Notes: generated from the letters alone by a model not told the origin. 64,000 nt of DNA from a virus (IMGVR_UViG_3300037245_001295:60741-124740); one strand, 5' to 3'. Positions 22,053-62,158 are shown, numbered from the stretch's first letter. Numbers and translations: made by a program.

Positions 22053-22702
22053 GACTATTGCGACCATTCACTGGCACAGGCGCGGTGTTCTTCCCGGAAG
22101 GCCCACCACCCAACGGCACTTGCGAATTCACTACGGAGGCGTGTCGCAAGCATTGCTATGTCAACGATCAAAGTGACTTCGATGAAGAAGTGAGGATTCC
22201 TACCTGGGTGAAGCGGGAAGTCTACGACCATATTATCAACCTCCCCATCAGAAAAGTTTGTCGAAGGTTGTGTCGCGATCTAGTTGGATTGCAGACACCT
22301 ATCCTGCACTGGTTTGCGTCAGGCGATTGCCCTTCAAAAGATGTTGGACGGATTTCGGCCATTATCGAATCCATGCCGCCCGACGTTGTCCAGATGGGTT
22401 TCACGAGGAATATCGAACTATGGGAGCGGCACAAGGACATCTTTGCGTTGACATTGGAGAGATTGGGCGTAGCACCTGATCCTCACGCGATGTACTCCTG
22501 CCCAAACTACGAGAAGGAAGTATCAGTCATGTGGTGCCCCAGCTACGATGTTAGGGGCGGGTTTTGCGGCCCTATCCTGTGTAGGGATGCAAGTCGCACA
22601 CACCCTGAACTTACTCACTATATTAACTGCCGAACCTGCCACCGATTGAAGACCGGTTGCTTTGATAGGAGAACGGATGAAACTACACAGTCTGAAGCAT
22701 GA
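22049..22702 (+). CDS. GP88-like Cys-rich phage protein
   Basis: A 217-residue protein. An early Cys cluster (TCEF..EACRKHCY), then HWFASGDCPSKD and VVQMGFTRN resemble the GP88 family of phage proteins, whose members have a Cys cluster followed by GD and FTR motifs. More Cys residues near the end (CGPILC, CRTCHRLKTGC) could bind an iron-sulfur cluster or zinc. The biochemical role of GP88 proteins is not known. Confidence 0.65.
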   Translation: MRLLRPFTGTGAVFFPEGPPPNGTCEFTTEACRKHCYVNDQSDFDEEVRIPTWVKREVYDHIINLPIRKVCRRLCRDLVGLQTPILHWFASGDCPSKDVGRISAIIESMPPDVVQMGFTRNIELWERHKDIFALTLERLGVAPDPHAMYSCPNYEKEVSVMWCPSYDVRGGFCGPILCRDASRTHPELTHYINCRTCHRLKTGCFDRRTDETTQSEA

Positions 22703-22763
22703 TTGGTTCCTGTGGGTGTTGGCGGCACTCGCCACCCTTCTCGTAATTGGAGCAACACAATGA
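22677..22763 (+). CDS. Single-pass membrane microprotein, 28 residues
   Basis: A short frame starting MKLHSLKHDW followed by a hydrophobic helix (residues 10-26). AGGAGAACGG lies right in front of the ATG, and the gene overlaps both neighbours (26 bases before; ATGA with the following ATG). The good ribosome site and positive-inside start support a real gene; no relative is known to me. Confidence 0.6.
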   Translation: MKLHSLKHDWFLWVLAALATLLVIGATQ

Positions 22764-22930
22764 GCGTCCGTGCTAATCTGGAAAAAGCAAGTAGTGAACT
22801 TGCGAAAGTCATTGGCATCATCAGCAAGCTATCCGACGCCACCTTGGTAGGCATGATAGGTGATGAAGAAGCCTGGGAAATACGCTGTCAGATGTCAGCC
22901 CTCTTAGCTGACTTGGAGGATGAGGTATGA
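22760..22930 (+). CDS. Small helical hypothetical protein
   Basis: A 56-residue amphipathic helical protein (MSVRANLEKASSELAK at the start). It starts in the stop of the membrane microprotein. No motifs. Confidence 0.68.
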   Translation: MSVRANLEKASSELAKVIGIISKLSDATLVGMIGDEEAWEIRCQMSALLADLEDEV

Positions 22931-23382
22931 ACATGTTCCCAGCCGTAATGCTACTGAGTTCGCTATTCAGCATCCACCCCATCCTGGAGGCTGGTAAGAA
23001 GTTCGACCCCCGCTGTGACATGCTCAAGTATGGGATCACTGACGGTTACCTAACTGGTATGGCTGAATCGCACGCCCGCAGCATGGCCACACGCCAGCAT
23101 CAGGACCACAACGGGTGGGAGCGTCGTTACCACAACATCCATGACAAGTTCCGACGCGGTCCCCTGCCCAAAGACCTGGGGAAGGTCAGCGAAATCTGCG
23201 CCGAGTCCTGGCCGGGCGACGACGCGAAGACGGCCGCCGCCGGCTGTTGGAAGGACTGGAAGACGAGCCCCGGCCATTGGTCCACTGCGGCCGGTAGGCC
23301 CACTCGCTTCGGGGTCGCGATGGCCCGGGGCAAGAATGGGATTTACTACATCTGCATCATCGCCGTATGGGAGCGACCATGA
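22927..23382 (+). CDS. Secreted CAP/SCP-like protein
   Basis: A 151-residue protein. The first 21 residues form a hydrophobic export signal. The rest contains a pattern like CAP (SCP/PR1) domains: ICAESWPGDDAKTAA, then WKTSPGHWSTAAG and FGVAMARG.NGIYYICIIA, comparable to the SPGHR and FGVG motifs, with several His residues that could bind metal. It should be exported to the periplasm or outside. CAP proteins in phages are rare; the role is open. Confidence 0.6.
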   Translation: MNMFPAVMLLSSLFSIHPILEAGKKFDPRCDMLKYGITDGYLTGMAESHARSMATRQHQDHNGWERRYHNIHDKFRRGPLPKDLGKVSEICAESWPGDDAKTAAAGCWKDWKTSPGHWSTAAGRPTRFGVAMARGKNGIYYICIIAVWERP

Positions 23383-23657
23383 AACTAAACGCCTGGATTG
23401 AGGCACTGCCCCCTGCTGACAAGGCACGACTGGCAGAGGCACTGAACAAAGACCCCGTCGCCGCTTTGAAAGCCTACAAGGCTTATGCAGGTGCAGAGGC
23501 TCTGAAAGTGCTTCGTGAACTTTTCGATGTACACCCGCTAAGCGATTTCATCTACACGATTCGTGAGTGTGAAGGCAAAGGCTGGGAAGGTCCGCTCGTG
23601 AAGCGATGGGCTGCGGCGTTGGCGCGGGCGGACGCACTCATTGAGGAGAAACCATGA
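23379..23657 (+). CDS. Hypothetical helical protein
   Basis: A 92-residue Ala-rich helical protein. Its ATG overlaps the previous TGA. Lys/Ala-rich repeats of helices in the first half suggest an all-alpha fold. Function unknown. Confidence 0.72.
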   Translation: MKLNAWIEALPPADKARLAEALNKDPVAALKAYKAYAGAEALKVLRELFDVHPLSDFIYTIRECEGKGWEGPLVKRWAAALARADALIEEKP

Positions 23658-23830
23658 AAGAATCATTAGTAATCGCTTGGGTATTTATTCTGGCACTTAT
23701 CGCCATCCTCATAGGTGCCGGCTTCGCAGTATTTGATTGGTCGCCTATGCTAACCCGGTTGGCAATTGTAGAAGCCGCCGTCTTTGGCATCGGTCTTGTC
23801 ATCGCAGTAATATCTAGCGTCATTCAGTAA
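23654..23830 (+). CDS. Two-pass membrane protein, 58 residues
   Basis: A small protein with hydrophobic segments at about residues 5-26 and 36-56, and a GAGG ribosome site overlapping the previous gene. Predicted inner membrane protein. Small two-pass proteins in phages may be holins or superinfection factors; nothing here decides. Confidence 0.68.
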   Translation: MKESLVIAWVFILALIAILIGAGFAVFDWSPMLTRLAIVEAAVFGIGLVIAVISSVIQ

Positions 23831-23853
23831 CCGTGACGCTTCCAGGAGACACC

Positions 23854-24144
23854 ATGACGGCACGAAGCAACTGGCGTGGTCACCCGATTGAGTCGGCCCC
23901 CGTGGGGTGGATATACAGCGACACGGGCGAACCCACCGTTGGCAGTCGAAGACCTTGTGGACGTTGTCACCGCCCACCGACATCTGAGGGGCATGATGCC
24001 TGTCTCGGCACCCTGGCAGGCGTAATGAATGCTTGCTGCGGCCATGGGAACACTGAAGCTGCCTACGTTCAAATGAACAACGGGTCAGCCCGACGTGGGA
24101 AAGCCGCTCTGGAATTTGCACAAGGGTTGTCAAATGAATCTTAA
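23854..24144 (+). CDS. Cys-rich phage protein with ACCGHG motif
   Basis: A 96-residue protein. CGRCHR and then HDACLGTLAGVMNACCGHG appear, a pattern I have seen in small phage proteins of unknown role (CLG.L.GV..ACCGHG). Zinc binding is likely. AGGAGACACC precedes the ATG, which is why I prefer it to a GTG 21 bases upstream. It overlaps the next gene by 11 bases. Confidence 0.76.
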   Translation: MTARSNWRGHPIESAPVGWIYSDTGEPTVGSRRPCGRCHRPPTSEGHDACLGTLAGVMNACCGHGNTEAAYVQMNNGSARRGKAALEFAQGLSNES

Positions 24145-24562
24145 ACTGATTGACACTATTCGGATATTGGACTTCCCATTCCATGCTTATGTCGTGGTGG
24201 GTAGTGGGATACTGGCTATTCGGGGCATTCGCCCGGCGAGGGATATTGACATTGTTGTCACTGGTGAACTCTACAATGAATGTAAGAAAAGTGGTTGGCG
24301 TGAAGAGTGGCACGCGGTTGTAAACAAGTATGCCTTGCACAAGCATGTTGGTTGTTTTGAAGTTGAACTCTACCGGGACGTTAATGGTGGTGAGGTGCAG
24401 TTTACATTTGAGGAGTTGCGGGCGTCGGCCGATATATTTCAAAATGCCCCCTTTATTTCCCTCCCTCAAATGTTGCGTGTGAAACAGCGTTGCGCGTCCT
24501 GGGGTGCAAAACATCGTGAAGACGTCGCGTACCTGCAAAGGCTGATTTTCCTGGAGAACTAA
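24134..24562 (+). CDS. Small nucleotidyltransferase-like protein
   Basis: A 142-residue protein with VVGSGILAIRGIRPARDIDIVV at its start: GSG at residues 23-25 and DID at 37-39 form the polymerase-beta-type active site. It resembles the MNT/AbiEii-type small nucleotidyltransferases used in toxin-antitoxin systems and antibiotic resistance. It overlaps the preceding gene and shares its last base with the next. Which molecule it modifies is unknown. Confidence 0.7.
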   Translation: MNLKLIDTIRILDFPFHAYVVVGSGILAIRGIRPARDIDIVVTGELYNECKKSGWREEWHAVVNKYALHKHVGCFEVELYRDVNGGEVQFTFEELRASADIFQNAPFISLPQMLRVKQRCASWGAKHREDVAYLQRLIFLEN

Positions 24563-24930
24563 TGATTGACAAGCGCGACATCACGTTCCGGTACACCCGA
24601 GGGCAAGGCCCTGGCGGTCAACGTAAGAACAAAGTCGAGACCTGCGTGATTGCCACACACACGCCCACAGGCCTTGAAGTTCGGGTTGACGGACGCAACC
24701 GCCGCCAGAATCAGAAGGAAGCTGTCAAGCTCCTGACGCAGCGGGTGCGGGAAGCTGCTGCGAAGCGGGTGGCGAAACAGCGGAAGGCGCGGCGCGACCA
24801 CGCAATTAAGAATGAGGAACGCATACGGACGTATGACTACTCGCGAAACCTCGTGACAGATCACCGGACGGGCAAGACAGCCCCGATCAAGGAAATCCTA
24901 GAAAAGGCTAAACTGGAGAAACTGCGATGA
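24562..24930 (+). CDS. GGQ release-factor-like protein
   Basis: A 122-residue protein with GQGPGGQ at residues 14-20, the peptidyl-tRNA hydrolysis motif of class I release factors, followed by a basic domain and RIRTYDYSRNLVTDHR, which matches release factor 1/2 sequence after the GGQ domain. It lacks the stop-codon recognition domain, as in ArfB (YaeJ), ICT1 and PrfH. It could rescue stalled ribosomes or release peptides without stop recognition. A lysine-rich C-terminus like that of ArfB supports ribosome binding. Confidence 0.85.
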   Translation: MIDKRDITFRYTRGQGPGGQRKNKVETCVIATHTPTGLEVRVDGRNRRQNQKEAVKLLTQRVREAAAKRVAKQRKARRDHAIKNEERIRTYDYSRNLVTDHRTGKTAPIKEILEKAKLEKLR

Positions 24931-25309: not shown

Positions 25310-26089
25310 ATGCCCAAGTACCCTGAGTTAGCCGACTACAAGACTCTTGAGATTCCCGTAGGCGTGATCTACTTCGACCGGGCGTTCAACAGCCGGGGCG
25401 TGTTCGCGCCTCAATCGTGCGTAGAGCTTGCCGAGAGTATGCGGGCCAAAGGCTTGAAGATTCCCATCATCGTTCAACCGCGCGGGGATGCCAGGGGTGT
25501 TCCGAAGGGGTTCGAGTATCGTATCATTGCCGGGCACCGCCGGTACACGGCCGCTAAGCTGTTGCTACAGTGGGTCACTATCCCGGCAACTGTAGTCACA
25601 GGCTTGTCTGAGAAGGACGCCAGGGTCACGAATCTGATCGAGAATCTGGCCCGGAAGAATCTAACGCTGTACCAAGAGGCAGTCGCCCTTCGGCATACCT
25701 TCCCTGACCCGATCTCTTACGAGAAGATGGCTAAGGAGGTGAGCAAGAGTTCCTCGTGGTGTCGAATTCGGTGTCGTCTGCTAGAGGCCCCAGAAAAGGT
25801 GCAGGAACTTGCCAGAAAGAACATCTTAGGCGCGGCCGATCTGAAGTACCTGACGTACAAAACGCCCGACGAGCAGCTAGCTATAGCGGCAGAGATCGAG
25901 ATTGCCAATTTGCACGGCGAGACTCTGCTAAACTACAGGCGTCGGAACAAGAAAATACGGCGAGCCCGCAACCTCCGGGACATTGATGAAATGCTGACTA
26001 TGCTCATGGCTAAGGGTGTATACCCAGACCCGTACAAAGCGCTATCGTGGGCTGCCGGAAGAATACCAGACGAAGAACTTTTAGGCTAA
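25310..26089 (+). CDS. ParB-like partition/CTPase-fold protein
   Basis: A 259-residue protein. Residues 60-120 carry the ParB N-terminal signatures IIAGHRRYTAAK and NLIENLARKNLTLYQEA. A central HTH region follows (YEKMAKEVSKSSSWCRIRCR). ParB proteins bind parS sites and clamp DNA after CTP hydrolysis. Phage ParB-like proteins act in segregation of prophage plasmids or in transcription control. No ParA gene is seen nearby. The ATG overlaps the end of the previous gene region by none and has GGAGCG about 10 bases upstream. Confidence 0.84.
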   Translation: MPKYPELADYKTLEIPVGVIYFDRAFNSRGVFAPQSCVELAESMRAKGLKIPIIVQPRGDARGVPKGFEYRIIAGHRRYTAAKLLLQWVTIPATVVTGLSEKDARVTNLIENLARKNLTLYQEAVALRHTFPDPISYEKMAKEVSKSSSWCRIRCRLLEAPEKVQELARKNILGAADLKYLTYKTPDEQLAIAAEIEIANLHGETLLNYRRRNKKIRRARNLRDIDEMLTMLMAKGVYPDPYKALSWAAGRIPDEELLG

Positions 26090-26107
26090 TTGGCACGGGA
26101 GTTGCAC
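26090..26107 (+). promoter_or_regulatory. Sigma-54-like -24/-12 motif, copy 1
   Basis: TTGGCACGGGAGTTGCAC, directly after the ParB-like stop codon. GG at 26092-26093 and GC at 26104-26105 are 10 bases apart, the exact sigma-54 spacing. The ATG at 26108 would lie before the +1, so it may not work as a promoter here; it could be a protein-binding site. It also contains the GGGAG used as ribosome site. Confidence 0.45.
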
Positions 26108-26365
26108 ATGTATGTAGATCAACAATTAAGAAGGCTGCTTGTACGGTATCGCGGGAGGATTCTGTTTGACTACTCAGGTCCACAGGACGTGTGTTGCCTC
26201 AGTGCGCGGCGTGACGGCTCGGCCGACGATGATTGGGTTTATGTCTCATTCACCCTCCCCACGTCCCCTGAGGACTCTTACGACCGTGCAGTCATCGCCT
26301 TGAGGGGTTGGCTGACAATGCCGCAAGCTCGGTATGACAAAGAATACCCAAAGGATTCCAACTGA
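26108..26365 (+). CDS. Hypothetical protein
   Basis: An 85-residue basic/mixed protein. The ATG is 6 bases after GGGAG, better than the TTG at 26090. Contains Arg-rich helices at the start and a beta-like middle. No family recognised. Flanked on both sides by the sigma-54-like 18-mers. Confidence 0.65.
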   Translation: MYVDQQLRRLLVRYRGRILFDYSGPQDVCCLSARRDGSADDDWVYVSFTLPTSPEDSYDRAVIALRGWLTMPQARYDKEYPKDSN

Positions 26366-26383
26366 TTGGCACGGAATTTGCAC
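26366..26383 (+). promoter_or_regulatory. Sigma-54-like -24/-12 motif, copy 2
   Basis: TTGGCACGGAATTTGCAC, a match to the sigma-54 consensus TTGGCACG-N4-TTGCW. It begins at the first base after the previous stop and differs from copy 1 at two positions. The expected start would be near 26393, before the AGGAGG and ATG at 26408. Confidence 0.55.
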
Positions 26384-26407
26384 TATTAGTATGCCAAGGA
26401 GGCCGCA

Positions 26408-26788
26408 ATGCAAAGAATAACAGAAAAAAGGCTTGATTTACTAGGGTTTCACCGCGAGAACGGCGTCATCGAGGTACGAAAACTTCCCGCCGGCACGCGA
26501 ATTGCACTGGAGACTGTGTCCGAGGTCTACGAGCTTGAAGTCGGAACCCCCCGGTTGGGGGTTGTTCTGATAGCCAGCGAGCGGAAGTTCCGGGCGCGCG
26601 ACAAGGCAGTAGTCACCGGAAGCCTTGACGTTGACACTGGCCTGTTTCTACCGAAGATCATTGGGCAAGGCCTCAAGGTTGTACTCAAACGACCCTACGC
26701 CCCTGTGATACGAACCGATCCGGTGCTGGCCGCCACGATCCGGGGCAAGGACGACAGTTACGTTTATGAAATGTGGAATTTGGAGTAA
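26408..26788 (+). CDS. Hypothetical protein behind sigma-54-like motif
   Basis: A 126-residue basic protein, beta-rich with an ordered distribution of Val and Leu, suggesting a small beta barrel. AGGAGG precedes the ATG. No family is recognised. Confidence 0.72.
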   Translation: MQRITEKRLDLLGFHRENGVIEVRKLPAGTRIALETVSEVYELEVGTPRLGVVLIASERKFRARDKAVVTGSLDVDTGLFLPKIIGQGLKVVLKRPYAPVIRTDPVLAATIRGKDDSYVYEMWNLE

Positions 26789-26792
26789 GACA

Positions 26793-26957
26793 ATGAGTAA
26801 GTCGTTCCTTTACGCGATCATCTTTGGCGCATTGGCCGCCGTGGCCGTCCGTTTTTCCACGGGCCTCACACCCGATGGGGAGTGCGTTACTACGTACTTG
26901 GCAATGATCCTGGGTACCCTGCTGGCCATCGGAAAAACTCTGGAGCAGAGATCGTGA
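26793..26957 (+). CDS. Small membrane protein
   Basis: A 54-residue protein with two hydrophobic segments (about residues 4-21 and 33-50). It follows GGAGTAAGACA, the same kind of junction as at 3335. It ends in GTGA with the radical SAM start. Confidence 0.68.
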   Translation: MSKSFLYAIIFGALAAVAVRFSTGLTPDGECVTTYLAMILGTLLAIGKTLEQRS

Positions 26958-27838
26958 AAACGCACACCTTTTCCATCGTGGTCGGCACGGCAGCCTGTAA
27001 TGCGAAGTGCCCGTTCTGCGTTAGCAAGATGACGCATACGGCGGCGTGCCGGATGAAGGCCATTAACAAACGTCGCTTACACACGGCCTGCCGCATTGTC
27101 GAGCAAGCCCGAGACGGGTTGGTGAACGTACTGCTGACCGGCAAGGGTGAGCCACTGCTGTTTCCCGACGAAATCACAGAATACCTTGTCGAGCTTGGGC
27201 AGTACAATTTCCCGTTGATCGACCTCCAGACTAACGGTATCCTCCTCAAGGCGTCAGCCGATCACGGGTATCTGAATAAGTGGGTGGGCTTAGGCCTCAC
27301 CTTGGCCTGTGTCTCAATCACACATTGGGAGCCGGATCATAGCAACAACTTAATGGGCATCGACCGTGGCTTTAACTTCTATGAGGCCGTGGAGGTGATC
27401 CATAAAGCCGGGCTGGCCGCCCGCCTGAATTGCACTTTGACAAGAAGTGGCTGTGCCACCCTGCACGACGTTGACATCTTGATTAACCGCTGTCGCGAGG
27501 AAGGTGTTGAGCAGCTTACCTTACGTGAGGTCGAAGTGCCGGATTACACCCCCGGCTCGGGCACGGCTGATACGACTAACGCGGTTCGTGAATATGCTGA
27601 GCAAGAGAAGCGAGTCGGCTTCGCTAATCAGATTCGTCTACATCTTGAGATGAAGGGTGCCACGAAGCTCATGGAGTTGCCGCATGGAGCAGTAATCTAT
27701 GACGATGCAGGGCAGAATGTCTGCATCTCCAACTGTCTCACGTCTACGACGGACCCGAACGACATTCGGCAGATCATCTACTTCCCCGATGGCCGGATCG
27801 CTTATGATTGGAAATACAAGGGAGCCCGAATCCTGTGA
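26954..27838 (+). CDS. Radical SAM enzyme
   Basis: A 294-residue protein starting at a GTG in the previous TGA. CNAKCPFC at residues 15-22 gives the CxxxCxxC iron-sulfur motif; TGKGEPLL (near residue 60) resembles the GGEP motif that binds the SAM methionine. The remaining barrel is normal length. Two further Cys residues near the end (VCISNC) could hold a second cluster. It may relate to QueE or MoaA-like enzymes, but no other deazapurine gene is seen in the window, so the substrate is open. Confidence 0.85.
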   Translation: MKTHTFSIVVGTAACNAKCPFCVSKMTHTAACRMKAINKRRLHTACRIVEQARDGLVNVLLTGKGEPLLFPDEITEYLVELGQYNFPLIDLQTNGILLKASADHGYLNKWVGLGLTLACVSITHWEPDHSNNLMGIDRGFNFYEAVEVIHKAGLAARLNCTLTRSGCATLHDVDILINRCREEGVEQLTLREVEVPDYTPGSGTADTTNAVREYAEQEKRVGFANQIRLHLEMKGATKLMELPHGAVIYDDAGQNVCISNCLTSTTDPNDIRQIIYFPDGRIAYDWKYKGARIL

Positions 27839-35640: not shown

Positions 35641-36131
35641 CTTACCAAGAACTACTTCGTGAGGCCTACAAGTGGGCCGAGAAAGTCAGCGACGACCGCA
35701 GTACGAAGAACGGCTCGCTTCTTATTAGGGGCAGCCAAATGGTACCCCTATTGTTTGGCTCAAATCGTTTTCCCACGCGGTCCTTAGCCAAGAATGAGGC
35801 TAACCACGAGCGCCCGCGCAAGTACGCCTTCACCGAACACGCCGAGCGAGATGTTATCTATTTAGCTGCAAAGTGTGGCCTATCCACGTCGGGGCTTGTT
35901 ATGGTCTGCCCGTGGGCTTGCTGCGCCGAGTGTGCCCGTGCTATCGTCATGGCAGGTATCGTGTCAGTCATAGCCCACAAGCAAGCCCACGACAAGTCAC
36001 CGGAGCGTTGGCGTCAGGCTATCGTGGACGGCCAGGTGATTCTTGCCGCCGGGGGTGTGTGTATCGAGTTTTGGGATGGAAAAGTTGGCGGTGTTGAAAA
36101 CCTTTTTAATGGAGAAATCTGGTGCCCATAA
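35637..36131 (+). CDS. dCMP deaminase-like zinc enzyme
   Basis: A 164-residue protein with HAERDVIYLAAK (zinc His and catalytic Glu at residues 68-70) and CPWACCAECARAI (zinc Cys). This is the cytidine/deoxycytidylate deaminase fold. It should convert dCMP to dUMP for dTTP synthesis. It lies in the nucleotide block with a MazG-like gene and overlaps that gene by 10 bases. Confidence 0.86.
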   Translation: MTYQELLREAYKWAEKVSDDRSTKNGSLLIRGSQMVPLLFGSNRFPTRSLAKNEANHERPRKYAFTEHAERDVIYLAAKCGLSTSGLVMVCPWACCAECARAIVMAGIVSVIAHKQAHDKSPERWRQAIVDGQVILAAGGVCIEFWDGKVGGVENLFNGEIWCP

Positions 36132-36475
36132 ACACATTCGATGAATACCAAGAAGCGGCCGTTAAGACGGCCATCTATCCCACGGGTGCAGAGGTCTGGT
36201 ACCCGGCATTGGGTCTAGCAGGGGGAGCAGGGGAGGTGGCCAATCAGGTCAAGAAGATTCTCCACGACGATGACTTTTGCACATTCACGTCGCCTTCAAT
36301 TACTGACGAGCGGCGAGCCGCTGTTAGGCAGGAAATCGGCGGCGTAATGTGGTATGTAGCTGCCCTTTGCACAGACCTTAATCTAAATCTTGGCGACGTG
36401 TGCCGTGAGAACATTGAGATTCTCGCCAGTCGCCAGGAGCGCGGAACCCTTCGGGGCGGCGGAGACAACCGATGA
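36122..36475 (+). CDS. MazG-like nucleotide pyrophosphohydrolase
   Basis: A 117-residue protein starting at a GTG. LGLAGGAGEVANQVKK near residue 30 and EIGGVMWYVAALCTDL near residue 73 are the two helices of MazG-like enzymes, with the acidic residues that bind magnesium. Phage MazG proteins hydrolyse NTPs or alarmones. The first Glu of the usual GE..GE pair is Gly (LAGGAGE), a small departure. Confidence 0.82.
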   Translation: MPINTFDEYQEAAVKTAIYPTGAEVWYPALGLAGGAGEVANQVKKILHDDDFCTFTSPSITDERRAAVRQEIGGVMWYVAALCTDLNLNLGDVCRENIEILASRQERGTLRGGGDNR

Positions 36476-36672
36476 GCGAGCCCATCTTATGCCAACATGC
36501 TTACGCAGCAGCGATCGACGCTGGGCACGCCTTGCTGGATGAGGCGGTACGGGCCGACCAGTGCGGAGCGGCTATGTGGGCCTCAAAGTACCGAGCGGCT
36601 GCGAAAGACGAGTATCGCCGTGCCAAGGAGATCAAAGACGAACTGAAAGGAACCCCTTATGAGATTACCTGA
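36472..36672 (+). CDS. Small helical hypothetical protein
   Basis: A 66-residue Ala-rich helical protein with a charged end. It is coupled on both sides (ATGA before, 14-base overlap after). No motif. Confidence 0.66.
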   Translation: MSEPILCQHAYAAAIDAGHALLDEAVRADQCGAAMWASKYRAAAKDEYRRAKEIKDELKGTPYEIT

Positions 36673-37669
36673 ATACCTCTCGCCGTCGTCCCTCACTCTG
36701 TGGGAGACGAACCGCGAAGACTATTACTTGAAGCATCTGGTCGCTGAGCGACCGCCTCGCACGCCACAGATGGACTACATGTCTATTGGCTCGGCCTTCG
36801 ACGCCTACGTCAAGGCCGCCCTCCATGAATCCCTCTATGGCAAAGGTGCCGATCCGCAGTTTGATCTGGCCGCACTCTTTGAGGAGCAGGTTGAGCCCCA
36901 TAACCGGGACTGGGCTTGGGAGGCGGGGAAGTATGCCTTTGAGGCCTACCTTCTCACAGGGTCTTATGGCGAGTTGCTGGCCATGCTTCTTAATAGTAGG
37001 GAGCCGCCCAAGTTTGAGTTCACAGTCCGAGGCGAAGTCAACGGCGTGCCCGTGATGGGTAAGCCAGACGCGCGGTTTGTCCATGAGTCAGGTGCTCATG
37101 TTATCCTTGACTGGAAGGTAAACGGCTTCTGCTCGAAGACAGGGGCCAGCCCCTACAAAGGGTTCAGGATCATACGCGACGGGTGGGGGCCTGAGACCGC
37201 GAAGCCTAGCAGAGGGGTTGGCAAAGCCCACAAGCTGTATGAGCCCATCACCCATGAAGGTATGGAAATCAGCGCACACTACATGGAAGAGACTAGCAAA
37301 GACTGGGCTGACCAATTGTCGATCTACGGATGGATGCTTGGGGAGGAAGTTGGGGCCGAGAATGTTGTGGTCTGTATCGACCAATTGGCGTGCAAGAACA
37401 ACGGCCAGTATCCGTTGATTCGGGTGGCAAATCATTGCTGTCGAATCTCAGAAACATGGCAGAAGAGTTTGGTCGAACGGTTGCGTAACTGTTGGACGGC
37501 TATTACGTCGGGGTATGTCTTCAATGACACCATGAGTCAAGAAGAGAGTGACGAACGGTGTGAGATTTTAGACATGCGGGCGTCGGCACACGGAGAAGCT
37601 GAACTAGGAGGAGTTGAAGCATGGGTATGCGAGATCGCCCGAGAGGCTACAGGATTCCGAAAGCGTTAA
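36659..37669 (+). CDS. PD-(D/E)XK nuclease, RecB/Cas4-like
   Basis: A 336-residue protein. GKPDARF (Asp137) and ILDWKVN (Asp151, Lys153) form the PD-(D/E)XK site; an upstream GSAFD motif (residues 44-48) is typical of RecB-like exonucleases. It is a DNA exonuclease likely acting on ends in recombination or host DNA breakdown. No Cys cluster of the Cas4 iron-sulfur type is seen. The last part overlaps the acetyltransferase gene by 49 bases. Confidence 0.86.
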   Translation: MRLPEYLSPSSLTLWETNREDYYLKHLVAERPPRTPQMDYMSIGSAFDAYVKAALHESLYGKGADPQFDLAALFEEQVEPHNRDWAWEAGKYAFEAYLLTGSYGELLAMLLNSREPPKFEFTVRGEVNGVPVMGKPDARFVHESGAHVILDWKVNGFCSKTGASPYKGFRIIRDGWGPETAKPSRGVGKAHKLYEPITHEGMEISAHYMEETSKDWADQLSIYGWMLGEEVGAENVVVCIDQLACKNNGQYPLIRVANHCCRISETWQKSLVERLRNCWTAITSGYVFNDTMSQEESDERCEILDMRASAHGEAELGGVEAWVCEIAREATGFRKR

Positions 37670-41340: not shown

Positions 41341-41624
41341 ATTGGCGTAGGATTCACAAGGGCGGAGATGACCCAAAACACCGAAAAGAGTGGGTGGGCG
41401 GCCGTGGTCGCTACAGGATCATCTGGCGCGATCGCGTCTATGAAGTCAATGTGCCGCCAGCCTTCCAAATAACCATCCTAACGAGAATCGACGACCGAGA
41501 TTATTGGGAGTTGCTGGACAGAAAGAGGCCGTTGAAACGAACCTTGAAAGCGGCCAAACGCGCTTGTGAGAATCACGCTAACCCCCCGAAGCCACGTAAG
41601 AAGAGGAAGAAGAAGCATGTGTAA
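41337..41624 (+). CDS. Hypothetical basic protein
   Basis: A 95-residue protein with an aromatic/beta middle and a Lys/Arg-rich end (RKKRKKKH). It overlaps the previous stop (ATGA) and the deoC start by 8 bases. Probably binds nucleic acid; no family recognised. Confidence 0.68.
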   Translation: MNWRRIHKGGDDPKHRKEWVGGRGRYRIIWRDRVYEVNVPPAFQITILTRIDDRDYWELLDRKRPLKRTLKAAKRACENHANPPKPRKKRKKKHV

Positions 41625-42297
41625 ATACTCCCGATCCCAAGTTGCGGCGGCCGTCGATTTGGCCGTGCTGATGCCTATCCACACGTCGGTTGACGTGTCC
41701 CTTTGCTGCCAGAAAGCTATCCGCTTCGGGTGTGCATCCGTCTGCGTGCAGCCTTACCACGTCCCCATCGCCGCCCGTCTTCTGGAAGACTACCCCGTTG
41801 GCGTTGGCACGGTAGTTGGGTTCCCCCACGGTTCGGAGTCACCTGACATTAAGGAACAAGCCTGCATTAACTCACTCGATTGTGGGGCGACGGAAATTGA
41901 TATGGTCTTGAATATCGCCGCCATGCTAGACGGCGATTGGGAAACCATTGAGGCCGAAATTGAGTCGGCGGTTAGAGTTTGCCATGATGACGGCGCTTCG
42001 CTAAAGGTGATTCTTGAAACCTGCTACCTCAAGGATCGGTATATCGGCTATGCCTGTGCCTATGCGGCAAAGCTGGGCGCGGACTTCGTCAAGACTTCGA
42101 CCGGCTACGGCCCTGGCGGGGCTACGCCTGAGGCGGTGAAGATCATGCTGGAAGTGGTCGAAGGCCAGTGCCAAGTCAAGGCCAGCGGCGGCATCAAGAC
42201 CTATGTGGACGCAGAGCTTTACCTGGACCTGGGCTGCACACGCCTGGGGTCGTCCAGGATCGAGGAACTAATGCCCTGCCGAAGGTGCGAACAATGA
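41617..42297 (+). CDS. deoC: Deoxyribose-phosphate aldolase
   Basis: A 226-residue class I aldolase. FVKTSTGYGPGGAT carries the Schiff-base Lys (residue 159), VKASGGI the second Lys (188), and EIDMVLNI the Asp of the proton relay. It cleaves or joins deoxyribose-5-phosphate with glyceraldehyde-3-phosphate and acetaldehyde. The ATG has AAGAGGAAG just upstream. It is followed by two deoxyribosyltransferase-like genes, an unusual salvage cluster for a phage. Confidence 0.93.
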   Translation: MCKYSRSQVAAAVDLAVLMPIHTSVDVSLCCQKAIRFGCASVCVQPYHVPIAARLLEDYPVGVGTVVGFPHGSESPDIKEQACINSLDCGATEIDMVLNIAAMLDGDWETIEAEIESAVRVCHDDGASLKVILETCYLKDRYIGYACAYAAKLGADFVKTSTGYGPGGATPEAVKIMLEVVEGQCQVKASGGIKTYVDAELYLDLGCTRLGSSRIEELMPCRRCEQ

Positions 42298-42758
42298 ACA
42301 CGTACACGCTCTACATGGCGGGACCGGTGAAGGGTCTGGCTTATGGCCCGGCGACCGACTGGCGGCACTGGCTGGCAGACAAGCTGGCAGACTACAACGT
42401 CGAGTGCCTCGACCCTTTGCGGGGCAAGGACGAGTTGCAAGGCGAGACGAGCATTGATCGCATCGAGTACGATACTCCTCTGTCCTGCCCGAAAGGCATC
42501 TATGTGCGTGACCGGTTCGACGCCTTGCGATGCGACTTGTTACTGGTAAACCTGCGAGACGCGGAGAAGCCTAGCCTTGGCTCAGTGATGGAGATTGCGT
42601 GGGCAGACGCGCTCCACAAGCCGATCATCCTTGTGATGGAGCCGGGGAACGTACATGAACACGCTATGGTCTTGGGAGCCTGCGGCTTCCGGGCACAGTG
42701 TCTCGAAGAGGCTGCGGCAATCGCCGTCGCTGTTCTTAACTTGAAGAAAGGTGATTGA
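42294..42758 (+). CDS. Nucleoside 2-deoxyribosyltransferase-like protein
   Basis: A 154-residue protein with MAGPVKGL at the start, DRFDALRCDLLLVNLRDA in the middle and SLGSVMEIAWADALHKPIIL, the SxGxxxE motif with the catalytic Glu. This is the fold that exchanges the base on deoxyribonucleosides or removes it (DNase-like nucleosidase, RCL-type). It starts in the deoC stop (ATGA). Confidence 0.78.
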   Translation: MNTYTLYMAGPVKGLAYGPATDWRHWLADKLADYNVECLDPLRGKDELQGETSIDRIEYDTPLSCPKGIYVRDRFDALRCDLLLVNLRDAEKPSLGSVMEIAWADALHKPIILVMEPGNVHEHAMVLGACGFRAQCLEEAAAIAVAVLNLKKGD

Positions 42759-42759
42759 C

Positions 42760-43341
42760 ATGACGAATCGACTACTCCAGACCCGAGGATACCTGTGTGG
42801 TGCAATGGACCGCGTAGCGGACGGCGGGGAGGGTTGGCGTATCAACTTGCAGCAACGCCTTGCCGACCTTGGCGTCTACTGGCTGGACCCCACACACAAG
42901 CCGATTGATATTGGTATTGAAGACGCCGACAACCGCGCCGAAGTGGAGCGGCTCAAGGGGTGTGGACTCTTTGAGGAAGCCGGTGAGGCCTACAAGTCGG
43001 TAAGGCACGTCGATCTGCGGATGGTCGATATTTCTGACTTCCTTGTCGTGAACATTGACCTTGACGTACATGCTTGCGGCACGTATGAGGAATCATTCCT
43101 TGCCAACCGGCAGAAGAAACCCGTCATCCTCCACATAGAGCAGGGGAAGGAACACACGCCAAACTGGCTGCTGGCCACGTTCCCACACCAGATGATCTTC
43201 TCTACCTGGGATGATTTGGCCTTCTACCTGAGGCACGTCGCCACGGCGAAAAACGTGGAGACTTACAACCGGTGGGCATTCTTTGACTTTACTATGTGCC
43301 GACGCTTTGGCTCGCCCAAGATGGGCGCTAACGGACTTTGA
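42760..43341 (+). CDS. Second deoxyribosyltransferase-like protein
   Basis: A 193-residue protein with YLCGAMDRVADGGEGWR at its start and HACGTYEESFLANRQKKPVI, where GTYEE takes the place of the catalytic GT..E motif. It appears to be a distant relative of the preceding gene. AAAGG precedes the ATG. Together with deoC it would act on deoxynucleosides or deoxynucleotides. Confidence 0.72.
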   Translation: MTNRLLQTRGYLCGAMDRVADGGEGWRINLQQRLADLGVYWLDPTHKPIDIGIEDADNRAEVERLKGCGLFEEAGEAYKSVRHVDLRMVDISDFLVVNIDLDVHACGTYEESFLANRQKKPVILHIEQGKEHTPNWLLATFPHQMIFSTWDDLAFYLRHVATAKNVETYNRWAFFDFTMCRRFGSPKMGANGL

Positions 43342-56692: not shown

Positions 56693-58627
56693 TCACTCTA
56701 AACCCAAACGGATGGGAGGATCGGCCGCGTGCGTCCGATACCCCTCATCCCGAGGGATGCCGCCCCGCCTCAATGTCACACGCCCAGCCTCAACCGGTGG
56801 GCTTACCTCCACACGGTGGGCGCGTCTCTCCAACTGCCGGGAGCCGGTCCATCTCGACGATTCGTCCTCAATCATGTACTCCCGCGCTTGCGCCTCCGCC
56901 TGCCCGTCCCTCCCCCGATCCGGCGCCTGATCCTGCGCCTGATCCCACCGCGCAGCTTGACAGACGGGGCACGGGCAGCCCTCAGCCACTCGCGGGCTTT
57001 CCACGCATGGCTCTGGGTATGGCTCTGGGTATGGGTATGGCTCTGGGTATGGCTGTGGGTAGGGCTGCCGGCCGGGCACGGCCTCTGAGATGGGCACCGG
57101 CCCCGCCGCCCGCTGCGCCACCCACTGGGATGCTGTGTAGGCCGCAAGCGAATTCTGGCCGTTTGGTATCCGCCAACGCAGAGCGGCGGGAGCTTCGACC
57201 GCGTCGTCAGCTTCGACAGCTTCGACAGCTTCGACAGCTTCGACAGCTTCGACAGCTTCGGGCTGGTCGGCATCTTCCCAACACTTCGCAAGGGCCGTGC
57301 CGTGGTTGCCAGCCTTACGACGCCAGTAATCCAACAGGTCGTTATCATCGAGCATATCGCACAAAGCAGGCCAATGCCTACGGATGTTACCACCGAGTTT
57401 GGCGTCAATCTCGTCATAGGTCATACCCTTGACAGCATCCATGAAGCGGGCATGAAGCGCAATCCAGTTACAAATCTCACGAGCGTTAAGACTGCCATCA
57501 TACAGCCGAACCTCAAAGCTGCCATGACGGAGGTAAGCCCGCCAGTTGACAAACTCGAACCGGTCCCGACTCTCGGCAAAGTCCTCGATATGTTCACAGT
57601 TGCGAATCTCGGCACACTCATACTGAGGGCTACCACACATCGAATTGCCACCACGGCTCATTGTGACAAATTTCTTCCACATCGTATACGTCTTACGATA
57701 CGCATAAGCGATACGTAGGCACTCTTCGGACGAATCCTCAGAGATGTCAACATGGATATGAAGGCCACAACTGCTATTGGTGGCCCAATGCTTCTCGTCG
57801 GCAATGTCGCAAAAGTCGCGAATCTCTTGAAATCCAGCATCACCCTGCAAAATCGGAGAGACGAATTCTTTCCCCGGAGTGCTACATTCGTACACACAAC
57901 CCCATTCGGTTGTGCCGTGCAGTTGCTCATAACCCCGACATTCGGCAGTCTCAAGCTCGACGCCAAACCGGCGCTTAGAACCGACCTTATCGAATGAACC
58001 CGCCTCACCGCTCCAAGGCTGAGTTTTCCACGTTTCCGCACGCCCGTAACATCGCTCACAGAACGGGTCACCGTCCCAACCGCTATGCTCGCCACGAAGG
58101 ATAGCACGGCTACAATGGCCACACGTCACATAAATCGTCTCATAGCACGCACCGCACAAAAGCTCCTCATCGGGACTACAGAGCGCATCCCTACGGTCGT
58201 GAACTTCCTCGCACACGACACAGGTGAACCAGTAGTCACGCCAGCATCGGGCACAGACATGGCCACCCTCAGTCGGGTGGTTGTGGTTGTTCTCTTCGGT
58301 ACGACGGTCAGTACGTCCACATGTGGTACAAACCTGATAAACGGATTCGTGGCACGGGCGGCAACGGGTGTAGCCATCGGGACCAGAGACAATTTCGCTA
58401 GATTCCCTATGACGATTCAAGGCGAACACTTCGTCACAATCGTGACAAGTGGCGTGCTGGTCACTGAAACACCGTGCGCAGATATAGCCCCGATCCTCGA
58501 CGTAGATCATACGGTCGCGGGTGCGCTCACGGCCGCAACCCCCGACACACATGACGGTCTCGGACGGGTCGGGCACTTGCGGCGCGGGCTCATCGTCGAG
58601 CCATGATTCTTGCAGGTACGGGGGCAT
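56693..58627 (-). CDS. Amidoligase-family protein with zinc array and repeat tail
   Basis: A 644-residue protein in three parts. Residues 25-195 hold about eight CxxC pairs, a zinc-binding array of treble-clef or RING-like form. Residues 215-440 are the amidoligase-2 domain: FGVELET (221-227), KEFVSPIL, CGLHIHVD (287-294) and FEVRLYDGS (371-379), the acidic, His and Arg residues of the ATP/metal site of this glutamine-synthetase-like fold. The tail has VEA repeats (457-478), PYPEPYP repeats and a last Cys cluster. It should form an amide bond between a carboxylate and an amine. No clear ribosome site at the first Met. Confidence 0.84.
   Translation of the reverse strand: MPPYLQESWLDDEPAPQVPDPSETVMCVGGCGRERTRDRMIYVEDRGYICARCFSDQHATCHDCDEVFALNRHRESSEIVSGPDGYTRCRPCHESVYQVCTTCGRTDRRTEENNHNHPTEGGHVCARCWRDYWFTCVVCEEVHDRRDALCSPDEELLCGACYETIYVTCGHCSRAILRGEHSGWDGDPFCERCYGRAETWKTQPWSGEAGSFDKVGSKRRFGVELETAECRGYEQLHGTTEWGCVYECSTPGKEFVSPILQGDAGFQEIRDFCDIADEKHWATNSSCGLHIHVDISEDSSEECLRIAYAYRKTYTMWKKFVTMSRGGNSMCGSPQYECAEIRNCEHIEDFAESRDRFEFVNWRAYLRHGSFEVRLYDGSLNAREICNWIALHARFMDAVKGMTYDEIDAKLGGNIRRHWPALCDMLDDNDLLDYWRRKAGNHGTALAKCWEDADQPEAVEAVEAVEAVEAVEADDAVEAPAALRWRIPNGQNSLAAYTASQWVAQRAAGPVPISEAVPGRQPYPQPYPEPYPYPEPYPEPCVESPRVAEGCPCPVCQAARWDQAQDQAPDRGRDGQAEAQAREYMIEDESSRWTGSRQLERRAHRVEVSPPVEAGRVTLRRGGIPRDEGYRTHAADPPIRLGLE
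57001..57065 (+). repeat. Imperfect 12-base repeat coding for PYPEP units
   Basis: gctctgggtatg and gctgtgggtagg units follow each other. On the minus strand they code for the Pro-Tyr-Pro-Glu stretch of the amidoligase tail. Confidence 0.78.
57207..57261 (+). repeat. Nine-base tandem repeat, about six copies
   Basis: The unit cagcttcga is repeated with almost no change, coding on the minus strand for the repeated VEA of the amidoligase tail. The near-identity suggests a young expansion or slippage. Confidence 0.9.
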
Positions 58628-58648
58628 AGGCGAGCCTAAGGAGGGTGG

Positions 58649-58831
58649 TTATTTCAGGTTGTCTGTGATGAAAAAGCCGATTCCCCAGGATAGGAGAACA
58701 GCGACGACTATAGCCCTTGCGTAAGGGTAATTCGGGATCATCGTGAAAGCCCAAACTACTGCCGCAATCACACTAGCCGAGGTGACTAGGGCGGCCGCGC
58801 CAATCAGGACGAACTGCAAATGCCTAAACAT
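58649..58831 (-). CDS. Two-pass membrane protein
   Basis: A 60-residue protein with hydrophobic segments (residues 6-30 and 37-53). It starts in the stop of the preceding zinc protein gene and is 21 bases before the amidoligase start. It may place the pathway at the membrane, but function is unknown. Confidence 0.72.
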   Translation of the reverse strand: MFRHLQFVLIGAAALVTSASVIAAVVWAFTMIPNYPYARAIVVAVLLSWGIGFFITDNLK

Positions 58832-59007
58832 CACAACGCCGCCTTTGCGCCGCGCTCAGTCTTGCAGATGGTACAACGGTGCTGAACCGGACCCGTGCCA
58901 CTCTTGGCACACTCGTTATGAACGCGCTTGCCGTCGCCATACTTCTTATCCTGGAACTTGGCGCCTGCGCCCGTATTGTCAGAACATCGAAAACATGAAA
59001 GAATCAT
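58831..59007 (-). CDS. Zinc-type small protein
   Basis: A 58-residue basic protein with CFRCSD at the start and HRCTICKT near the end, a likely zinc site, with Lys-rich middle. GGAGACTTGT precedes the ATG on the minus strand. Overlaps the membrane protein by 3 bases. Confidence 0.72.
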   Translation of the reverse strand: MILSCFRCSDNTGAGAKFQDKKYGDGKRVHNECAKSGTGPVQHRCTICKTERGAKAAL

Positions 59008-59016
59008 ACAAGTCTC

Positions 59017-59235
59017 CTAATTGTCAAGAGTCAGACGAATGTTATGTTCGGAAATGAGCGAGCCATCCTTAGCAATCAGTTGCATGTCGCCAGCCTCAAA
59101 ACTGACAACAATGACAGGAACCAACTCACCGGCCGCAAACGTGCCAATCGGCACTTTCAGAGTACAGCCGATAAACTGCAATACCCCGGCATCCAGTTGA
59201 TCCCAATGACACCAATCAAACAGTGTACGTTCCAT
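59017..59235 (-). CDS. Small beta-rich protein in the amidotransferase operon
   Basis: A 72-residue protein (MERTLFDWCHWDQLDAGV...) with hydrophobic beta strands, no motif. AAGAGGCGATT precedes the ATG. It lies between the amidotransferase and the zinc protein, 67 bases after the former. Confidence 0.72.
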   Translation of the reverse strand: MERTLFDWCHWDQLDAGVLQFIGCTLKVPIGTFAAGELVPVIVVSFEAGDMQLIAKDGSLISEHNIRLTLDN

Positions 59236-59302
59236 AATCGCCTCTTTCGTTGTTACAGGTCCGCCCGCCCGGTCACTATCGCCGGGCGGGGCACCGGCTA
59301 TG

Positions 59303-60256
59303 CTACCCGGCGTAATCGCTACTGTCGAACTCAGTGTCAGACATGGAATGGATGCTGACACTTTCCTCATCACAGTACGTACCCCACGCATCGGCCCATT
59401 CCTGATCGTAGTCACGAACCTCCGAATTCCCCGAAGCCGCGCTCTCGGTCTGATCCTTATCCCTCCACCAATCGTTAGCGGCCTTGCGACCACGTCCAGT
59501 CTGGCTGTTGCGACGGGCGGCGACCCCATTACTACCCGCGTAATAATTCGTGGCACCCGAGCGACCGGAGCTACCATAGTAACCCCACTTGCTGCCGGAG
59601 GAGACAAACGCCTTGACCTCAGAACCCTCCACATTGGACGAGCCGACAAGACCGTCAGCGTTGAACTTCCAGACCTCTCCCTCACCAAGCGTGTGACAGT
59701 CACCGCCGGTGCAGGCGTCAAGATGCTTCCAACTGGAAGAATAATACCAGACGCCATCGACCTCAACAACGGCAAGCTCGCCGTTATGAGACATGAGGTA
59801 AAAATCATCCCCATCGAACCAACTCAAACCCCAGTAACCACCGATCTGATCGAGAGCTTTGTTGTAATCGCCCCGTTTCTTATTGAGCGACCAGAACAGA
59901 TATTCCGAGTCAACCTGAAACCTGTCAGGAGCGTCACACATGCCATTATGGCTACCAATGATGCGACCGTAACGGAACGGATGACTGTTGCGACGGTTCA
60001 CCTTGCCACGAGTGGCAAAACGGGTATGACCGGCGATGAACCACGAGCTATCGCGGGACGCCTTGAGCCACTTCGAGACCTTGTTATCGAGCAACACCTT
60101 AGAGGGGTCGCCGGCCCGTTTGGTCATCTTGCCAGTGGAATTGAAAAACCCGCACGAATCGGTCCCGCGCTCGCGGTTGGCCCACGTCAAAGCGCGCATG
60201 ATACCGAGATTGATTTTTGTGCCCTTAGGGGCGATTGCTCCGAAAATACCGCACAT
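59303..60256 (-). CDS. Class II glutamine amidotransferase (Ntn hydrolase)
   Basis: A 317-residue protein starting MCGIFGAIAP, in which Cys2 becomes the N-terminal nucleophile after Met removal. RGTDSCGFF, AGHTRFATRG and SHNGM are the other glutaminase motifs of GlmS/PurF/AsnB proteins. No synthetase domain follows; instead a Ser/Gly/Asp-rich tail (from about residue 235). It would take ammonia from glutamine and pass it to a partner, most likely one of the amidoligases on either side. GAGGACTTTCTGT precedes the ATG. Confidence 0.9.
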   Translation of the reverse strand: MCGIFGAIAPKGTKINLGIMRALTWANRERGTDSCGFFNSTGKMTKRAGDPSKVLLDNKVSKWLKASRDSSWFIAGHTRFATRGKVNRRNSHPFRYGRIIGSHNGMCDAPDRFQVDSEYLFWSLNKKRGDYNKALDQIGGYWGLSWFDGDDFYLMSHNGELAVVEVDGVWYYSSSWKHLDACTGGDCHTLGEGEVWKFNADGLVGSSNVEGSEVKAFVSSGSKWGYYGSSGRSGATNYYAGSNGVAARRNSQTGRGRKAANDWWRDKDQTESAASGNSEVRDYDQEWADAWGTYCDEESVSIHSMSDTEFDSSDYAG

Positions 60257-60355
60257 ACAGAAAGTCCTCGCCGCAACAGTAAGTGAACATATCGGCCGCA
60301 TGGCCGGTGACAATGTCGGGCGGTGGGTTGCGTCCCCCGCCCCTCTTCTATTACA

Positions 60356-60383
60356 AGTATACACCATCAGGGGCAAAAGTCAA
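60356..60383 (-). promoter_or_regulatory. Sigma-70-type promoter for the amidotransferase operon
   Basis: On the minus strand: TTGACT (60383-60378), 16 bases, TATACT (60361-60356), then TTGTAATAG. Leader of about 90 bases before the ATG at 60256. Confidence 0.85.
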
Positions 60384-60445
60384 ATGAAAAGACGGGCCAG
60401 AACCCGCTTAGAGGGCAGATTCCGACCCGCTGTCAAAGGGTTGTA

Positions 60446-61486
60446 TCAGAAGCGCGGCCTGATAGGGGTATTGTCGAACAGGGTGGCTCGCGAGTCCAGC
60501 CAGTCGATAAGCTCGGCGTCACCGATAAGAGTGGCAAGGCCCTCAAGGTCGTGGTCATAGTCGCCGTCGAAAAGATCGTCAATCTCGTCAAAGGACAAAT
60601 TTCTGACGGCATCCATGAAACGACAATGAATGGTAACCCACTTACAGATCGTATTAGGGTCAACAGTCCCCTCAAGCATCCGAACCTCAAAGGTGGTGTG
60701 ATCCCAATAAGCGGCAAAGTTCACCATCTCGTACCGGTCGATCCCCATCCCGCGCACCGCATCCCTATAGGTCTCGTGACTACGCCTTTCGACGTGATCC
60801 CGAAGATCGGCCGGACGCCATCCAGGCAGACAACTGTAAGAACCGCAAGAACGGCTGTGAGGCACAAGACGTGCCCAAAAGGCTGTACTCCTACTGTAGG
60901 CATACATGATACTGAGAAGCTGATCCTTTTCTTCGTCACGCATGTCATAATGGGTATGACACCCACAATAGTGGTCGGCGGTCCAATCGTTGTCACTGCC
61001 AAAGGCCAGAATTTCCTCAACCTGCTCAAGACCCTCATCACCGTAAAGGATCGGAGAATCGAACTCCATGCCCGAAACGGTGCAATCCGACTTGGCACCC
61101 CAATGCGTGCGACCGGCCAATCTCTGATAATGGTCACAAGAGGCAGTTTCGATTTCGATACCGAACTTGCGCTTGGAGCCGATCCTATCATAACTAGCGA
61201 CAGAAACGTCAAGGGCGGTGGGACGCCAACAACTGTTACTACTGCGACCGCCGTTACAACGGTCACACAACACCTGACCCCGATCGTAGTGGGCTCGTCG
61301 ATGGGTGCTACGGGTGATCCCCCTACCGTGGTGGTAGACAATTACTCCGCACTCTTCGCAGATTCCATACGACCGGTCAAAGCATTCCATGCAGATGCCG
61401 GTCGCCACGGAAAATTGGTGTGCTGGTTTGCGATCACGGCAAACGCAACAGCGGTGTGTTCGGGTTGCGGTTTCGGTTGCGGGCAC
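60446..61486 (-). CDS. Amidoligase-family protein
   Basis: A 346-residue protein. Residues 10-80 contain four CxxC pairs (CCVC, CMEC, CEEC, CDRC), a zinc array. The amidoligase-2 core follows with FGIEIET (108-114), MEFDSPIL, CGCHTHYD (174-181) and FEVRMLEGT (266-274). The start is a GTG seven bases after GGAGG. It aligns with the central part of the 56693 gene and lacks the long tail. Works presumably with the class II amidotransferase next to it. Confidence 0.87.
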   Translation of the reverse strand: MPATETATRTHRCCVCRDRKPAHQFSVATGICMECFDRSYGICEECGVIVYHHGRGITRSTHRRAHYDRGQVLCDRCNGGRSSNSCWRPTALDVSVASYDRIGSKRKFGIEIETASCDHYQRLAGRTHWGAKSDCTVSGMEFDSPILYGDEGLEQVEEILAFGSDNDWTADHYCGCHTHYDMRDEEKDQLLSIMYAYSRSTAFWARLVPHSRSCGSYSCLPGWRPADLRDHVERRSHETYRDAVRGMGIDRYEMVNFAAYWDHTTFEVRMLEGTVDPNTICKWVTIHCRFMDAVRNLSFDEIDDLFDGDYDHDLEGLATLIGDAELIDWLDSRATLFDNTPIRPRF

Positions 61487-61530
61487 GTCGTATCCTCCGA
61501 CCAGTGTGAATTGTTTCCCTTGACACTACA

Positions 61531-61558
61531 AGTATACACCACCAGTGGCGAAAGTCAA
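61531..61558 (-). promoter_or_regulatory. Sigma-70-type promoter for amidoligase gene
   Basis: Minus strand TTGACT (61558-61553), 16 bases, TATACT (61536-61531), then TTGTAGTGT. The GTG start of the amidoligase is 38 bases downstream of the expected start. Confidence 0.85.
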
Positions 61559-61620: not shown

Positions 61621-62052
61621 TCATCCCCGCCGGTCTTCTCCGCTCAACCGCTCGCGTCCGCCCAACTGCGCATGCCCTCGCACTCGCGCCCCTCCCGACA
61701 CTCGGACGAAGTCGAACAACTGTGCGTATCCATACACATGGGCGAACCCGAAAATCGACACTCGATCAAAGGCCGAGGCGTTGCCGTACAGGTGAGAATT
61801 GTCGCCAGCGCGGGCGAACCCGCCCATCTGGGCGAAGCCATACACATGCGCCAACTCCCCCACCTGTACGTGGTCGAATAACTGTGCATGTTCGTACACA
61901 ACGGCATCCGGTCCAACATAGACAGAAGGCGCAACGGTAGCAGTCGCCGCCACCCAACCCCCACCGTTGGAGTGTTGAGCGGCAGGCACAGGCCCGTCGC
62001 CAAAGTCGTAAGTTGTCCCGCCGCCGTCCGGCGGTGGTTTGTCTTTACCCAT
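61621..62052 (-). CDS. Beta-helix repeat protein
   Basis: A protein of about 143 residues (174 if an upstream GTG is used). After a Pro/Gly-rich start it consists of repeated six-residue turns such as AHVYGF, ARAGDN, SHLYGN, AHVYGY, ARVRGH, the pattern of left-handed beta-helices (hexapeptide proteins such as YdcK). No clear ribosome site. Could be an acyltransferase-like or a structural protein. No promoter of the common type right upstream. Confidence 0.68.
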   Translation of the reverse strand: MGKDKPPPDGGGTTYDFGDGPVPAAQHSNGGGWVAATATVAPSVYVGPDAVVYEHAQLFDHVQVGELAHVYGFAQMGGFARAGDNSHLYGNASAFDRVSIFGFAHVYGYAQLFDFVRVSGGARVRGHAQLGGRERLSGEDRRG

Positions 62053-62158
62053 TGGAGCGCCGCTGTATTGTGCGCACCCCATTGGTGTTGGGGTGCGCTG
62101 GTTTTGACGATTAGCAGCTTTTTTGCGGTCGTGACACTCTACCACAAGTAGGGACGCG

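Follow-up and report, generated by a model that had tools for sequence, protein, structure and literature searches.

A stand-alone class II glutaminase beside zinc-module amidoligases in an uncultured phage and its relatives: a possible amidation module

Introduction

What would a phage do with several amidoligases and a single glutaminase? The question is raised by a gene cassette near the right end of IMGVR_UViG_3300037245_001295:60741-124740, a stretch of 64,000 nucleotides that corresponds to bases 60741-124740 of a 124,740-base IMG/VR record of an uncultured phage. The whole stretch is called the window here, and coordinates refer to it unless stated otherwise. Read leftward, the cassette consists of a short-form amidoligase (AL2), a class II glutamine amidotransferase (GAT), three small genes and a long-form amidoligase (AL1). 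We tentatively propose, as a possible reading, that it is a glutamine-fed amidation module in which one GAT serves several zinc-module amidoligases with different acceptors inside the cell.

Phage amidoligase-GAT cassettes are common and have long been described (PMC3890496, which lists the cassette genes, PMC5498523, PMC10580990, PMC11945000), and the compact phage ligase-amidotransferase set is therefore less new than the original prediction had implied. They have been regarded as putative peptidoglycan-modification cassettes, directed against superinfection or serving lysis (PMC5498523, PMC11945000, PMC10580990). This reading goes back to Iyer 2009 and Hardies 2013, as cited in PMC5498523 and PMC11945000, and is a hypothesis in both of these papers. 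A role in auxiliary nitrogen metabolism was proposed for genes of these kinds in a Planctomycetes phage (PMC10945688). Neither a biochemical test nor a substrate was found in the literature for phage amidoligase-GAT cassettes. The new part is the clade variant described here, with zinc-module amidoligases in a variable array beside a single GAT and without ATP-grasp or COOH-NH2 ligase.

Results and Discussion

AL2 (60446..61486, minus strand, 346 residues, GTG start) and AL1 (56693..58627, minus strand, 644 residues) match PF12224 (Amidoligase_2) at 44.6 and 59.7 bits, respectively, both above the curated Pfam cut-off of 22 bits. The earlier claim that both proteins are amidoligases with intact acidic, His and Arg motifs is borne out, since G-x-E-x-E, E141, H-x-H, R212 and E-x-R (AL2 numbering) are kept in both. 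In alignments the AL2 ligase core (60557..61183, minus strand), which has the glutamine-synthetase/gamma-glutamylcysteine-ligase (GS/GCS) fold, presents E111, E113, E141, H177, H179, R212, E267 and R269. This core occupies approximately residues 102-310 and is preceded by zinc-type Cys pairs at about residues 13-90. In AL1, residues 27-200 contain about five LIM-like zinc modules, followed by a core at about residues 220-415 and a low-complexity C-terminus. The putative zinc-module region of AL1 (58028..58549, minus strand) shows nine regularly spaced CxxC motifs, and the family profile has weak LIM matches; a Pfam scan for zinc families gave no match at E <= 1 for the cassette proteins. The cores of AL1 and AL2 are 39% identical, while the identity of either to any phage in the GenBank collection is below 32%. 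The C-terminus of AL1 carries the low-complexity repeats EAVEAVEAVEAV and PYPEPYPYPEPYPEP (approximately 57190-57260 and 57000-57060, minus strand), which are absent in the orthologue from the related phage G029.

The AlphaFold model of AL2 (mean pLDDT 88) is GS/GCS-like. Its fold matches are YbdK (6e-6), glutamine synthetase (5e-4) and PafA (5e-3), with a whole-chain TM of only about 0.4, and it also resembles Dop and GmaS. The carboxylate-amine ligase fold is common to all of these, but the identity is about 10% and zinc modules are found on the window amidoligases. AL1 and AL2 would be expected to form amides in an ATP-dependent reaction.

The protein between the two ligases, GAT (59303..60256, minus strand, 317 residues), begins with MCGIFG and would use Cys2 as its nucleophile in the manner of class II (N-terminal nucleophile, Ntn) glutaminases. 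It had been described as such a glutaminase without a synthetase domain, and this assignment stands: no synthetase domain was found in it, it matches PHROG 4736 at 84.7 bits, and a profile of GAT and its relatives matches GlmS at 2.7e-26. The GAT model matches the GlmS glutaminase fold (E about 1e-12). Cys2 (MCG start), R79, T82, N104-G105 and D116 are invariant in an alignment of 30 GAT sequences. Pfam GATase_6 gave 23.5 bits for this divergent single sequence, below the cut-off of 27. GlmS and PurF have the same glutaminase fold and residues; unlike them, the window GAT is stand-alone and has no synthase domain. None of AL1, GAT and AL2 matched the PADLOC defence profiles.

Residues 1-225 of the GAT model are well folded, while residues 226-317 are disordered except for a predicted helix at 283-295, which falls in the motif DYDQEWADAWGTY. 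Four of the five GATs in the clade carry the motif DYDxxWxxAWxxY, which is absent from all other proteins encoded by the clade genomes. Identity in the linker windows of the tail is at most about 0.26, and in the motif windows it reaches 0.62. The tail helix is likely a docking element for the amidoligases.

Scanning IMG/VR with AL1, GAT and AL2, singly or as pairwise alignments, gave nothing or distant matches, and a search of a plasmid collection gave two distant matches only. The search with a GAT family alignment succeeded and returned 80 loci. The five closest (L096-L100), with 40-52% identity to the window GAT, come from four phages, as G031 (L098) is the same phage as G030 (L097) and was counted once. 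The terminases of these four phages are 55-67% identical to that of the window phage. They share structural and replication genes with the window phage, and the cassette sits outside both modules.

It is important to compare the numbers of amidoligases in this clade. Each phage has one GAT, while the zinc-module amidoligases number one in G032, one in G033, two in the window phage, at least four in G030/G031 and at least seven in G029; most of the relative records are fragments, and the counts for G029 and G030 are minima. No third PF12224 match is present in the whole 124,740-base record. The original prediction of a set with two ligases holds for the window phage but is too narrow for the clade, in which the array runs from one to seven. 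In G029, four short amidoligases are followed by GAT and one long amidoligase, and two further copies lie upstream. The long copy (G029_35127) is the AL1 orthologue (50% identity, tree support 100/98) and the short copies cluster with AL2 (support 100/99), so the order short - GAT - long is conserved and expanded in G029.

The neighbourhood recurs in G029, G030/G031, G032 and G033, all of this clade, but G012 and 27 other TerL-related records are without amidoligase and GAT; the original prediction, which required it in related phages, is thus borne out by the former and not by the latter. Because most of these records are fragments, the absence is weak evidence except for G012, which is collinear with the window phage and yet lacks anything equivalent to the right-hand 21 kb of that phage. 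IS607-like pairs (a MerR-type/serine-recombinase TnpA and a TnpB-like protein) were noticed by eye at L096:9258-10902 in G029 and L097:10743-12408 in G030; they are 61-64% identical and both adjoin amidoligase arrays.

All 15 zinc amidoligases of the clade form one group in the tree (100/99), and at least two paralogue groups predate the split of the phages. The full catalytic set (GxExE, E141, HxH, R212, ExR) is kept in 15 of the 15 (AL1, AL2 and 13 others). The tandem copies of G029 are under purifying selection, with nonsynonymous divergence (dN) of 0.29-0.54 and synonymous divergence (dS) above 1 (for example, dN 0.29 and dS 1.08), which indicates that each copy is maintained. Among the G029 short copies, the zinc regions are only 21-42% identical when the shared Cys residues are left out, against 59-67% for the cores. 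The faster divergence of the zinc regions fits separate targets of the paralogues.

An amidoligase lies within 6 kb of GAT at 78 of the 80 loci, and the remaining two are on stretches that end early. This is strong evidence that the GAT family works with PF12224 ligases. The partner ligases of the published cassettes are distributed differently. An ATP-grasp protein occurs at 43 of the 80 loci and a COOH-NH2 ligase at 44, all among the 64 loci without Cys-pair amidoligases; the loci with Cys-pair amidoligases have neither (0/16; Fisher p about 5e-7, with related phages treated as independent). Neither ATP-grasp nor COOH-NH2 ligase (PF14395) gave a match in the window record or in the clade. 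In this clade, therefore, ligase and glutaminase appear to suffice as a pair, and the three-linkage model published for peptidoglycan cannot be transferred to it as it stands.

Known cassettes show both the likeness and the difference. The PaP3 cassette contains COOH-NH2 ligase, amidoligase, GAT, ATP-grasp and GGCT, and amidoligase-GAT cassettes occur also in phiEco32-like EK010 and in Zobellviridae. The LUZ24/PaP3, phiEco32-like and RIO-1-like cassettes (L008, L010, L011) resemble the window cassette in having a PF12224 amidoligase adjoining a class II GAT in the early/replication region. However, they have one PF12224 ligase together with COOH-NH2 ligase, ATP-grasp and GGCT, whereas the additional ligases of the window cassette are zinc-module paralogues within that one family. 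The Arthrobacter phages Laroye, Salgado and relatives (L005) have a similarly minimal amidoligase and GAT, the latter of similar size, but the single amidoligase is without zinc modules, GGCT is adjacent (in Salgado the order is GGCT, amidoligase, GAT) and identity to the window proteins is about 22-25%. An Elusimicrobia contig from a metagenome-assembled genome (L095) is alike in its N-terminal Cys-pair modules, ligase core and directly downstream GAT; it differs in its identity of 21-25%, its position outside the clade in the tree and its single copy within the stretch read.

The module may work as follows. GAT would hydrolyse glutamine via Cys2 and release ammonia. A zinc-module amidoligase, with ATP, would activate a carboxylate of the target, which would then be converted into an amide. 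The N-terminal LIM-like modules, presumed to bind zinc, would select the target, so that each paralogue would have its own acceptor while the glutaminase is common to all; the helix near the end of the disordered GAT tail would dock one GAT to several ligases. With regard to timing and acceptor, expression would be from host-type promoters and the module would act within the cell, with host proteins as the most likely targets. The more specific form of this proposal, with radiating amidoligases that have their own zinc targeting regions, share one GAT docked via the tail helix and amidate several different host proteins during infection, is unlikely to be correct in all its parts. In this clade the system is reduced to ligase and glutaminase, the zinc regions are separable, and from one to seven ligases occur naturally beside a single common partner. 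Should the paralogues indeed act on different acceptors, the system would be a modular one for amidation and would give phages a new route to modify host molecules.

Several points weigh against the proposal. The family profile matches LIM structures only weakly (E about 0.01). Looser constraint on the zinc region would give the same faster divergence. The GAT of G032, a phage with a single amidoligase, is without the tail helix motif, and the test on partner ligases counts related phages as independent. The same glutaminase residues could suit another gamma-glutamyl compound, and GAT might be an EgtC-like hydrolase. Finally, peptidoglycan is the target favoured in publications on related cassettes (PMC5498523, PMC11945000).

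The last of these points leads to the main rival, in which the peptide stems of peptidoglycan, or their precursors, are amidated or extended by further residues through the amidoligases and GAT; this would alter the host surface against superinfection or prepare lysis. It is the published reading for the RIO-1, phiEco32, PaP3/LUZ24 and PSA-HP1 cassettes (PMC5498523, PMC11945000), to which the amidoligase and GAT have clear homology. However, the three-linkage model is based on COOH-NH2 ligase and ATP-grasp, both of which are absent in the clade, and GGCT (PF06094) gave no match in the window record and is found within the clade only in G033, 7 kb away. It is also not obvious why a single wall polymer would call for multi-module zinc domains and as many as seven paralogues, and the published reading is itself a hypothesis. 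Cell-wall modification is considered somewhat unlikely here.

It is distinctly unlikely that GAT is a gamma-glutamyl amidohydrolase or peptidase of the EgtC type, trimming or reversing the amidoligase products instead of donating ammonia. The fold is common to EgtC, PMC5498523 places GAT among degradation genes, and GGCT, another gamma-glutamyl enzyme, accompanies 20 of the 80 GAT loci. The GAT profile, however, matches GlmS and PurF (2.7e-26) much better than EgtC (1e-3), and this amidoligase fold requires an amine, which a glutaminase would supply.

Auxiliary nitrogen metabolism, in which the module makes amides or amino-acid derivatives that support host metabolism in infection, has the precedent of the Planctomycetes phage (PMC10945688) but leaves the zinc modules, the paralogue radiation and the faster divergence of the zinc regions unexplained, and we regard it as improbable. 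Hypermodification of the phage DNA, in which the amidoligases would couple a carboxylated base with ammonia or an amine, is less probable again. An amide ligase with carboxymethylcytosine as its substrate is known from a phage (PMC12783734) and zinc modules could bind nucleic acid, but that ligase is an asparagine-synthetase homologue and not a PF12224 protein, and the scanned subset of window genes contained no base-hypermodification gene, only an N6/N4 methylase. That the additional amidoligases have no functions of their own, being selfish copies or duplicates in decay, as the variable copy number and the IS607-like pair adjoining two arrays could suggest, is largely refuted by the complete catalytic residues in 15/15, dN well below dS in tandem copies and paralogue groups older than the phage split, and the idea of relics was rejected.

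Transcription Signals and Neighbouring Genes

The cassette was predicted to have its own promoters, and this is supported by a 31-base sigma-70-like motif present in six copies in the window, compared with none in shuffled sequences and none expected by chance. Four of the six are on the minus strand in the cassette region; exact matches are located 5' of AL2 (61528..61558, minus strand) and 5' of GAT (60353..60383, minus strand). A terminator-like hairpin (60392..60430, minus strand), with a 16-pair stem and a T-rich tail, lies between AL2 and GAT and is a consensus match only. The motif is not found directly 5' of AL1, which is probably transcribed by read-through from GAT, the unit from the GAT promoter extending through AL1. 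In G030, similar promoters are located 5' of two amidoligases and of GAT. The whole record contains 17 strong sigma-70-like promoters of one family (TTGAC...TATACT or TATAAT; for example, at window positions 16709, 46422, 63153 and 63832), and the counts for this family in related phages are 0 to 12.

Three small genes lie between GAT and AL1 on the minus strand: one at 59017..59235, one for a 58-residue Cys-pair protein, zinc-ribbon-like with paired CxxC (58831..59007), and one for a likely membrane protein of 61 residues (58649..58834). The membrane protein and small zinc proteins had been included in the set, but they are not conserved. No relatives of the three genes were detected in related cassettes, and in G029 the frames of GAT and the next amidoligase are only about 70 bases apart. 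They were rejected as parts of the system and probably do not belong to it. Directly upstream of AL2 (61621-62145, minus strand), imperfect hexapeptide-like repeats are encoded, with matches to PHROG 7964 and 5070, both of unknown function.

Other Features of the Record

A protein of 647 residues matching glycosyltransferase family 41/HMW1C is found at window positions 7692-10746 (plus strand) with a methyltransferase upstream, and both have relatives in G012, as does a radical SAM protein at 26882-27838 (plus strand). A DeoC-like aldolase followed by two nucleoside 2-deoxyribosyltransferase-like proteins is located at 41566-43341 (plus strand). Two paralogous proteins at record positions 22353-24872 and 35791-37503 (plus strand) contain repeats of 40-45 residues (APNGxIYGIPY...KIDPSDD) and are probably beta-propellers; one of them is fused to a structural-type N-terminal domain. 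A papain-like peptidase near the terminase (L013:5951-6985; record 25951-26985, plus strand), recognized by eye and with an apparent Tat signal, MNRRDALKLMAGTAGG, is conserved in the clade and is unusual beside phage packaging genes.

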